Shown here: piece after piece, positions 10,050 through 12,812 of the stretch
Layout: each line of letters starts with the position of its first letter
Position numbering within the stretch: position 1 is the first letter of the stretch
Source of the DNA: Bacteroidia bacterium
GTDB lineage: Bacteria > Bacteroidota > Bacteroidia > Chitinophagales > Chitinophagaceae
Reading direction: 5' to 3'
Assembly: GCA_030426665.1 (NCBI GenBank)
Contig: JAUHYD010000013.1
Location: 1 to 64,000, forward strand
DNA length: 64,000 bases
The notes under the pieces: generated by a model
What the model was told of the DNA's origin: nothing
The model's input: the letters and a program-made list of their open reading frames with translations, nothing else
The model's database searches: none
Position numbers and translations under genes: made by a program

Positions 10050-11165
10050 ATGAATACCAAAATATCTTTCAATTGGCTTCAGCGGACTACGCTTGTGGTA
10101 GCTGCGGTATGTTTTTCCGGTATGGTTGCCGTTACGTCTTGTAACAAGGGTGCTACGAAAAATGGCGATGCCGGCGTTGTGGGGCGCGAGTCAGTTCCTG
10201 TCACCACAGAGCACGAAAGCAGCACCGGGGGTAAGGGTGGGACTTATCAGACGCTGGAAAATGTATATACAGTAGCCGATATAAGGACCTATCAGGATGG
10301 TAGTGCTGTGGAGGTTATGTTTAGTGAGAACACACAGTTCTTTACGGTAGCAGATGCTGCGACACTGGAATTTCTGAAAGAGGCTCTCAGTAAAAATGAA
10401 CCTGTAGCGGTTACGTTCGATCCGTGGCAGGGGGTCATTGTAAAAGCGCAATATCCTGATGCACAAGAGGCTCAGGCTATTAAATCACGCAAGGTGGTTA
10501 GTGATCGTTCGCATGCAATGGAGTTAGATTTGTCGCGAATTTCTGACGATGTTATTAATACACCGGAAGATATGGGAGTATTGAATACTACGGATGCCGG
10601 TTTGACAAATGTGATTCCGGATTTTGCGACGGCACAAATGATGTTCGACTACATCACGCGCCAGTGCTGTGCTTTACCCGGTCCTTATGCAATTGACTAC
10701 TGCATTACCTTTCAGTATTGTCCGGATGGTTGCTACGCGAGAGCACATAAAATGTGCTGGATTATCAATAACAAATACAATTATGGCACAAAGAAAATAT
10801 TCAGCTTTGCTAACTCCGGTTCCGACAAGTTATGTGTACAAGCACAGAAGTGGGGTGGGTGCTGTATCAGGTGGTGGTATCATGTAGCACCATTGGTGAC
10901 AATTAAGACGCCTACAGGTCCGAAAGCCTATGTTTTTGACCCTGCGATGTTCAATCAGCCGGTGTTATTGTCTACATGGTTGCATTTTCAGGAAAACCCG
11001 GTATGTGCGGCCAGCTTTACACCACATGTTTCTATGATTAATGTACAGCCAACTTCTTCTTACGCACCATCTGGTAGTTCGGGTTTTGTGTTTAGTACAG
11101 ATCCAACGTATTCAAGAACCAACAGCACACTTACCAGCTATAAGTATCGTATTTCATGTCCATAA
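10050..11165 (+). CDS. Protein-glutamine glutaminase-like protein deamidase, lipoprotein with pro-domain
   Basis: Lipobox AVTSC; catalytic region PDGCYARAHKM, CCIRWWYHVAPLVTI, AYVFDPAMF gives Cys/His/Asp triad candidates (codons at 10731, 10881, 10938); N-terminal ~75 aa resembles the known glutaminase pro-region. Start moved to internal Met. Confidence 0.8.
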   Translation: MNTKISFNWLQRTTLVVAAVCFSGMVAVTSCNKGATKNGDAGVVGRESVPVTTEHESSTGGKGGTYQTLENVYTVADIRTYQDGSAVEVMFSENTQFFTVADAATLEFLKEALSKNEPVAVTFDPWQGVIVKAQYPDAQEAQAIKSRKVVSDRSHAMELDLSRISDDVINTPEDMGVLNTTDAGLTNVIPDFATAQMMFDYITRQCCALPGPYAIDYCITFQYCPDGCYARAHKMCWIINNKYNYGTKKIFSFANSGSDKLCVQAQKWGGCCIRWWYHVAPLVTIKTPTGPKAYVFDPAMFNQPVLLSTWLHFQENPVCAASFTPHVSMINVQPTSSYAPSGSSGFVFSTDPTYSRTNSTLTSYKYRISCP

Positions 11166-11518
11166 TTGGAATTTATAAAAAATTATTGTCAGACTCAACA
11201 CGCCGTTTGTGCATGTTGAGTCTGTTGTTTATAGTCTTATTCAGCCAATCGTGCGCTATCTTTAAGCCAAAGAAAAAGAATGGAATGGAATCCGTAGAAT
11301 ATGCTTTGACGGTTGCCGGAATTCGCCCGGCCGGTGGTGAGGATGCATATATCGAAGTGTTTTTTAATGAGTCGGCACGGTTTTACCGATTGCCCAAAAA
11401 TGCCACACCGGAGTATCTGACACTCCTACGCATGTCCGAAAAAGAGCAGGTACCCGTAATGGTCAAAAGAGCCAATGAGTATTCGGATATTATTCTAAGG
11501 GTGAAGAAAAAAAAGTAG
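11156..11518 (+). CDS. Small lipoprotein resembling an isolated protein-glutaminase pro-domain
   Basis: Lipobox FSQSC; YIEVFFNESARFYRLPKNATPEYLTLLRMSEKEQVPVMVK aligns with AVEVMFSENTQFFTVADAATLEFLKEALSKNEPVAVTFD of the preceding gene; ATG overlaps the preceding stop region. Confidence 0.65.
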   Translation: MSIIGIYKKLLSDSTRRLCMLSLLFIVLFSQSCAIFKPKKKNGMESVEYALTVAGIRPAGGEDAYIEVFFNESARFYRLPKNATPEYLTLLRMSEKEQVPVMVKRANEYSDIILRVKKKK

Positions 11519-11597
11519 GGACTGGCGTGTGGTTTTTGTTCGTAACACCAACCCAAGCTAATGCTGCTATTATTCACTCAACCGAAAGAGGATACAT

Positions 11598-12812
11598 ATG
11601 CTGAAGGATTTGAAACATTGTTTATTGCTGCTTTTATGGGTAATCACCACGACCTCTTGTAGCAATTCTGACAATAATCGTGCCGACAACTACACCTTTC
11701 GTAGTCTCAAACAGAGCTTTGATGCGGAAGTTATAGTGTCTGGAAAAGCTATAAGAGAGCAGATTGAGATAAACTTTGTCAAAGCACCCAAATTTACCCG
11801 TGAGAAAATGGTGCCGTCGCATAATGCTGCACTAAGTGTTGAAAAGGAATGTGACAAAATACTTGACATAATTCGCGCGGTTGAGGATTCCCTGGATGCT
11901 TTGCTGATTGACTCGTCAAAAAGAGATGACCGAATTGTGAGAAGTTTTATGGTTGACGAAGGTCGCTCCAAACGCTTAAAGAATCTAATTGATGATGCGC
12001 TCGAAAATATGTTGGATTCGACGGGATTGCGGGATACACGTAGGCGACAGCAACTACGCGAGGAGATAAAGGGAAAGCACCAAGACGTTTTTGGTATAGA
12101 CTCCATACTATGGTCACAAGTTCATTTTCAGGGTTCCGGCGATAAAGCGAAAATGGAATTGTCCCGCTTAAAGTTAGAATTTTTAGGTGCCACAAAAATG
12201 GTCGTCGACAATATTATCGAAGGTGCGAATAGTGGCACATCTTGTGGGTACTCAAGGGAATTGGCACTTGCGATACCGAATACCTCTTTCCTGATTTCCG
12301 GTGATAGGCTCGAGGCTTCTGTTTTGCTCGCTATGTTGCCGGACACTGCTGAATACAAGTTGCTCGGGATGAGGTTAGGTGGTAAGGAGCTGGACATTCG
12401 AAATGGCGTTGGTTCCTATGCCGAAACGGTGACAACGCCGGGTATGCATCGTCGAGATGGCTCGGTGTCATTTATACATGCACAGGACAATTATCCCCAA
12501 ACAAGAAACGTAAGATTTGAGTACTTTGTTTGGGAGCCTGTAGTAAGTGTGAAGACTACTGGACCACGCATTATTTATGCAGGAGTACCCAATCAATTAG
12601 ACATTCGTGCGAGTGGTCTTTTTTATAATCAGGTACACGTAACGGTTGACAAAGGTACTCTGACCGGCATTGGCCCTGATTACGTATTAGAAGTTGAAGA
12701 TACTGGTATTGTAACAATGTCTGTATGCGGTAAATTTAAAAATGGGCTCATGCGTGAATTGGATACTGTCGTATTTGAAGTAAGGCGTCCCCAAAACCAA
12801 GCGACGAAGTAA
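11598..12812 (+). CDS. GldM-like lipoprotein (orphan T9SS core-component homologue)
   Basis: Lipobox TTTSC; layout like GldM: coiled N-terminal part, then ALAIPNTSFLISGDRLEASVLLAM, IRNGVGSYAE, PRIIYAGVPNQLDIRASGL, VTVDKGTLTG, TIVTMSVCGK-type segments, VVFEVRRPQ. Confidence 0.55.
   Translation: MLKDLKHCLLLLLWVITTTSCSNSDNNRADNYTFRSLKQSFDAEVIVSGKAIREQIEINFVKAPKFTREKMVPSHNAALSVEKECDKILDIIRAVEDSLDALLIDSSKRDDRIVRSFMVDEGRSKRLKNLIDDALENMLDSTGLRDTRRRQQLREEIKGKHQDVFGIDSILWSQVHFQGSGDKAKMELSRLKLEFLGATKMVVDNIIEGANSGTSCGYSRELALAIPNTSFLISGDRLEASVLLAMLPDTAEYKLLGMRLGGKELDIRNGVGSYAETVTTPGMHRRDGSVSFIHAQDNYPQTRNVRFEYFVWEPVVSVKTTGPRIIYAGVPNQLDIRASGLFYNQVHVTVDKGTLTGIGPDYVLEVEDTGIVTMSVCGKFKNGLMRELDTVVFEVRRPQNQATK

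Follow-up and report, generated by a model that had tools for sequence, protein, structure and literature searches.

The window analysed here, a stretch of DNA of 64,000 nucleotides, contains three open reading frames that follow one another closely on the plus strand, encoding products of 371, 120 and 404 aa (genes 1, 2 and 3; Table 1). Minus-strand genes lie on either side, a type IX secretion system (T9SS) cargo gene on one and a gene at 12851-13648 on the other. The ORF coordinates thus bear out the tight plus-strand succession with opposite-strand flanks that was described in an earlier, sequence-only reading of this DNA. Judged by eye, each of the three plus-strand products carries a lipobox-like signal sequence; export signals in this study were called by eye and with simple patterns, without a dedicated predictor. 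A promoter and terminator scan of the locus gave sites no more numerous than in shuffled sequence.

Table 1. Features of the locus, with positions in the window.
Feature	Position	Strand	Description
Gene 1	10050..11165	+	Predicted protein-glutaminase zymogen, 371 aa: lipobox signal, pro-domain, catalytic domain
Lipobox cysteine C31 (VTSC) of gene 1	10140..10142	+	Read by eye
Cis pro-domain of gene 1, residues about 68-135	10251..10454	+	Strand-helix order; profile match to 3a56 pro-region
Catalytic Cys228 of gene 1	10731..10733	+	Alignment
Catalytic His278 of gene 1	10881..10883	+	Alignment
Catalytic Asp297 of gene 1	10938..10940	+	Alignment
10-base overlap ATGTCCATAA, gene 2 start within gene 1 end	11156..11165	+	Shared by relatives
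Gene 2	11156..11518	+	Free-standing pro-domain, 120 aa, exported; proposed trans-acting inhibitor
S73-A74-R75 of gene 2, proposed pseudo-substrate hairpin loop	11372..11380	+	Alignment to 3a54/3a56
T9SS cargo gene (Por_Secre_tail)	8406..9887	-	Divergent; conserved partner only in Chitinophagales clade
Gene 3, GldM-like lipoprotein, 404 aa	11598..12812	+	Outside conserved unit

The deamidase and the free-standing pro-domain

Gene 1 is identified as a protein-glutaminase by its family profile, its catalytic triad and the fold of both its pro- and mature parts, and deamidase activity is predicted for its product. The protein matches PF18626 (Gln_deamidase_2) at 89.1 bits (cut-off 25; E 2.6e-25) and the solved protein-glutaminases (PDB 2ksv/3a56/2zk9) at E values of about 1e-20 to 2.5e-20. 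The best PDB matches of its predicted structure (pLDDT 85) are the pro-protein-glutaminase entries 3a56 and 3a54 and FBPG 8z3i, with a TM-score of 0.76 on the target and an E of 3.2e-22 for 3a56_B. The triad C228-H278-D297 is invariant in 59/59 aligned homologs (alignment A5). The deamidase was thus rightly called active-site-bearing in the sequence-only reading. A lipobox-like cysteine context was found by eye in the gene 1 orthologs with a resolved N-terminus. Against NF040782, the equivalog model of the Chryseobacterium protein-glutamine glutaminase, gene 1 scores 78.7 bits, below the cut-off of 250; the enzyme of Chryseobacterium contaminans (L139) scores 520.8.

Several individual loci are recorded here as side observations. 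In an uncultured Bacteroidetes, AM-lipid-02-D3 (L015 149-1228, identical to L085), Ala occupies the position of the deamidase catalytic Asp and gene 2 is kept; the enzyme may be inactive, or the change may be a sequencing error. Other PF18626 members of the phylum (L066-L070) have neither the pro-domain nor gene 2. On a divergent branch, L127 (2426-4933) contains two pro-domain-type deamidases in tandem without gene 2, and in L137 (3779-6555; Chryseobacterium sp. Pcu381_bin46) a gene-2 homolog lies between two deamidase genes.

By five routes of sequence and model comparison, gene 2 is a stand-alone copy of the protein-glutaminase pro-domain. Compared directly with the pro-domain of gene 1, it gives a blastp E of 2e-5 and a profile-profile probability of 96% (E 3.5e-9). 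A profile built from 28 gene-2 proteins and searched against all PDB sequences returned the protein-glutaminase pro-region as its only significant family (3a54, E 0.0019; 3a56, E 0.0032). In the predicted structures, gene 2 (AlphaFold model, core pLDDT >90) and the cis pro-domain have the same strand-strand-strand-helix-strand-strand order. A Foldseek search of the gene 2 model against 350,542 chains placed 3a56_B, 3a56_A and 3a54_A in the top three places, with 8z3i seventh. Lastly, the gene 2 of Chryseobacterium aligns to positions 13-111 of NF040782, which are its pro-region (E 6e-4). No Pfam family covers gene 2. The blastp and profile-profile matches agree with its earlier description as a pro-domain-only protein. 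Close relatives compared in pairs give dN/dS values of 0.06-0.23 for gene 2, and the gene is under purifying selection.

Two other assignments for gene 2 were considered and rejected. The Phd/YefM antitoxin family is matched in Pfam by 6/60 members (best E 2.4e-4), only over a short helix-strand stretch; in PDB the antitoxin likeness gives 7v5y at E 0.86, and it is not among the best structural matches. OB-fold proteins, for example toxin B subunits, appear in the structure search with a general fold likeness that is far weaker than the match to pro-glutaminase.

Conservation of the pair and of its neighbours

In the genus of the window, gene 1 is present in 29 of 35 genomes. Gene 2 lies directly downstream with the identical 10-base overlap in 28 of these 29, the window included, which is more than chance, and is single-copy within the genus; the sole exception (G002, locus L006) lacks both gene 2 and its start codon. 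Across 85,488 species genomes a single scan recovered 241 loci, and the analysis was confined to the best 80. Most same-genus genomes are among these 80, so the genus count and the 80-locus count overlap. In 60 of the best 80 loci (of 241), gene 2 comes immediately after gene 1 on the same strand, and two of the 20 loci without it run into a contig end. Within the best 80, gene 2 is downstream in all 14 Chryseobacterium loci, and the pairs from other phyla comprise three Chlorobiaceae MAGs, two Verrucomicrobia, two Acidobacteria, one Xanthomonadales MAG and two Planctomycetes (Gemmataceae and Brocadia), these taxon names being record names, mostly of MAGs. The Gemmataceae MAG (L116) also has the same 10-base overlap. 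The pair therefore spans several bacterial phyla, namely Bacteroidota and MAGs of five others. About nine relatives in the clade, among the best 80 loci, keep the enzyme without gene 2, which indicates that gene 2 is not essential.

In 398 genomes drawn from the phylum, a PF18626 protein occurs in 12 and a gene-2 match in 7, and these 7 are exactly those with a pro-domain-bearing deamidase; gene 2 without gene 1 was found in none of the 398. The 7 genomes come from only 4 genera and thus represent fewer than 7 independent events. Taken across phyla, co-inheritance of gene 2 with the deamidase is well supported by these genome comparisons. In a joint tree of the cis and trans pro-domains, built on few columns and with modest support, two label changes suffice, which suggests that the trans copies are an old family, separate from that of the cis copies, rather than repeated recent duplications.

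This distribution bears on whether gene 1 is a toxin used against rivals and gene 2 its immunity protein. Such a pair would be expected to have a small, adjacent, exported cognate gene and an envelope location, as seen here. However, no gene 2 occurs outside deamidase carriers in the 398 genomes, the gene is single-copy in the genus and of old inheritance, and the enzyme is retained without it in several lineages. In addition, a profile search found on gene 1 no trafficking domain of the type typical of polymorphic toxins, and in place of the orphan or duplicated immunity genes and patchy mobile distribution of such toxins, gene 2 was found only beside deamidases in the 398 genomes. An effector-immunity pair is very unlikely on this evidence, and the role in antagonism put forward in the sequence-only reading gains no support from three of these observations: no orphan gene 2, a single copy, and several lineages with the enzyme alone.

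The export status of the two proteins matches, in that both are exported or both are leaderless. In Bacteroidota nearly all gene-1 proteins have a lipobox, and gene 2 has a lipobox or an ordinary signal peptide; in the clade formed by Chlorobiaceae, Planctomycetes, Verrucomicrobia, Acidobacteria and Xanthomonadales neither protein has a signal peptide (all by eye). Because the leaderless enzymes form one clade on the enzyme tree, this represents a single joint switch and not many. The leaderless protein-glutaminases are those of L113, L116, L117, L118, L120-L124 and L132. It would be unusual for a protein deamidase to be cytoplasmic or to be exported by an unconventional route.

Gene 3 matches the second and third domains of GldM (E 4e-7 and 1e-8) and has a lipobox-like signal by eye, and it was therefore correctly described as a GldM-type lipoprotein; its score against TIGR03517 (GldM) is 58 bits, below the cut-off of 180. 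The two domains are common to gene 3 and the PorM/GldM protein of the type IX secretion system (TIGR03517), from which gene 3 differs in its lipobox in place of an N-terminal transmembrane helix, its position as an isolated gene outside any gldKLMN locus, and a score far below the cut-off. No T9SS genes lie beside gene 3 in the window. A cassette of three genes, in which the GldM-like lipoprotein would be the secretion adaptor, would agree with the shared strand, with the 79 bases between the gene 2 stop and the gene 3 start, and with the promoter and terminator scan, which found no terminator-like site between genes 2 and 3. However, a GldM-like gene adjoins the gene 1-gene 2 pair in no relative examined, the nearest relative of gene 3 (31% identity, in G029) lies away from the pair, and the genome of the window has two further standard-length GldM genes elsewhere. 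Since gene 3 is never beside the pair in relatives, we give next to no credence to an effector/inhibitor/adaptor cassette. The proposal of such a cassette in the sequence-only reading retains its enzyme/inhibitor half, to which the co-inherited pro-domain copy lends weight, and loses its adaptor: never being conserved together, which was named there as what would speak against the module, holds for gene 3 but not for the gene 1-gene 2 pair. As a separate observation, L053 (1492-2715) encodes a 408-aa lipobox GldM-like protein, and others of about 400 aa occur in G027 and G029.

The T9SS cargo gene (TIGR04183, E 5.5e-11) had been regarded as a mere flank. It does flank the plus-strand genes, and in the Chitinophagales clade it is in fact the constant third partner, divergent and adjacent to the enzyme in 38 of the 40 loci with upstream sequence, even where gene 2 is missing. 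The genome of the window has a single distant full-length cargo paralog (29% identity). In the loci compared, the cargo gene is not beside the enzyme in Chryseobacterium or in other phyla. The cargo protein was also considered as a substrate of the enzyme; its 61 conserved positions include a single glutamine (Q202), which gave this no support.

Proposed inhibition in trans and alternative roles

S73 is the sole residue that is invariant in the gene-2 proteins (60/60) and is located in the loop of the hairpin that precedes the helix. It is followed by A in 34, Q in 22, E in 2 and P in 2 of the 60 proteins, and then by R or Q. Mapped on the enzyme tree, the residue after S73 shows at least 10 changes, most of them Ala/Gln exchanges. 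In alignment, S73-A74-R75 of gene 2 corresponds to T46-A47-Q48 of the C. proteolyticum pro-enzyme (proPG; 3a54/3a56), and 3a54 is titled an A47Q mutant, so that the invariant residue of gene 2 adjoins the matching position. Going by PDB entry titles and the aligned sequences, we take the active site to be occupied by residue 47 of the C. proteolyticum pro-region; the A47Q pro-enzyme 3a54 presumably mimics an enzyme-substrate complex. Conservation in gene 2 is highest in the active-site loop, which points to direct inhibition at the active site. A comparison of intact S-x-R/Q motifs in the cis pro-domain with absence of gene 2 gave a mixed pattern, and no link between the two is claimed.

We consider it likely that genes 1 and 2 encode an enzyme and its inhibitor, with gene 2 acting in trans as a pseudo-substrate. 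The basis for this is homology, fold, adjacency with overlap, co-occurrence, matching export, purifying selection and loop invariance, and from it we infer binding, inhibition, protection and translational coupling. Gene 1 would encode an exported, probably lipid-anchored protein-glutaminase zymogen, converting protein Gln to Glu, with an N-terminal pro-domain that would cover the active site until cleavage. Since the lipid anchor is N-terminal to the cut, cleavage would release the mature enzyme. Translation of gene 2 is probably coupled to that of gene 1 through the overlap and would supply the pro-domain a second time, as an exported protein in its own right. This protein may bind prematurely matured or returning enzyme, with its Ser-Ala/Gln-Arg/Gln hairpin loop entering the Cys-His-Asp active site as a pseudo-substrate. 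Gene 2 would thus shield the envelope of the producer, or the cytoplasm in leaderless lineages, from deamidation, and would probably hold the enzyme off inside the producing cell. A cis pro-domain is already present on every enzyme, which counts against the need for a second inhibitory copy. However, the protein-glutaminase of B. helcogenes was reported to be active with its pro-sequence attached (PMC12791059), so that inhibition in cis can be incomplete and a second inhibitor useful.

The pro-domains of secreted enzymes often aid folding, and gene 2 is presumably in one translational unit with gene 1 and shares its compartment. Gene 2 might thus be a foldase that chaperones the exported catalytic domain in trans, and not an inhibitor. 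We regard this as unlikely: such a foldase would be redundant, since each enzyme retains its cis pro-domain; conservation peaks at the active-site loop and not over the general surface; and an apparently intact enzyme persists without gene 2 in several lineages. A role off the active site, as a decoy or regulator that for example sequesters the activating protease, is suggested by the likeness between gene 2 and the zymogen segment which that protease must remove, but is highly improbable, since gene 2 does not include the linker that would carry the pro/catalytic cleavage site and its conservation is centred on the active-site loop. Within the enzyme-inhibitor reading, the Q-bearing versions of gene 2 (22/60) could be substrates instead of stable inhibitors. 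A speculative and doubtful extension is that gene 2 is a self-consuming, substrate-mimic timer, Ala giving a stable block and Gln being slowly deamidated, and that the pair and the T9SS cargo form a surface protein-modification system in Chitinophagales.

Comparison with known systems

Protein-glutaminase is a commercial food enzyme and has been studied since 2000. To our knowledge, its natural regulation has been taken as pro-domain cleavage alone; a conserved neighbour that encodes a free pro-domain suggests a dedicated protein-glutaminase inhibitor. If this is true, the idea of propeptide-analogue inhibitors would be extended from proteases to protein deamidases. Gene 2 encodes a small, directly testable protein that could help in enzyme production and control, and the pair occurs in Chryseobacterium, the genus of the industrial protein-glutaminase. 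The searchable protein-glutaminase papers do not mention an adjacent inhibitor gene (subscription literature lay outside the search, so novelty is not proven), nor is the pair mentioned in the passages found of a classification from 2023 with comments on PF18626 neighbourhoods. The pair is apparently an undescribed, widely conserved enzyme-inhibitor arrangement of an ordinary enzyme family.

Gene 1 has its fold, triad and pro-domain topology in common with the protein-glutaminase of Chryseobacterium proteolyticum (EC 3.5.1.44; 2zk9, 3a54-3a56) and FBPG (8z3i), and differs from them in being only about 25-33% identical, in its lipobox-type signal and in extra cysteines. For gene 2, three kinds of inhibitor are relevant. 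First, stand-alone propeptide copies act in trans on Plasmodium SUB1 (PMC6993865) and in the cathepsin L propeptide-like family I29 (PMC6010012); these are eukaryotic, have protease targets, and their genes are not adjacent and overlapping. Secondly, the Bfi inhibitors of Bacteroides fragilis are small, exported or lipid-anchored proteins that are co-transcribed with lipid-anchored C10 protease zymogens (PMC2873492). As a small exported protein encoded with a probably lipid-anchored zymogen in Bacteroidota, the putative inhibitor gene 2 is like them; however, the Bfi proteins resemble staphostatins and not a propeptide, and their target is a protease. Third, in the SpeB-Spi system of Streptococcus pyogenes, a propeptide analogue encoded next to the secreted C10 cysteine protease inhibits SpeB (Kagawa 2005, as cited in PMC2873492). 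In both systems a small gene beside a cysteine enzyme encodes a propeptide analogue: gene 2 shares homology with the propeptide of the enzyme that it lies next to on the same strand, and would share the inhibitory function. The enzyme in the window, however, is a deamidase (PF18626) and not a C10 protease, and its pro-domain is unrelated; thus gene 2 may work like Spi but is not Spi.
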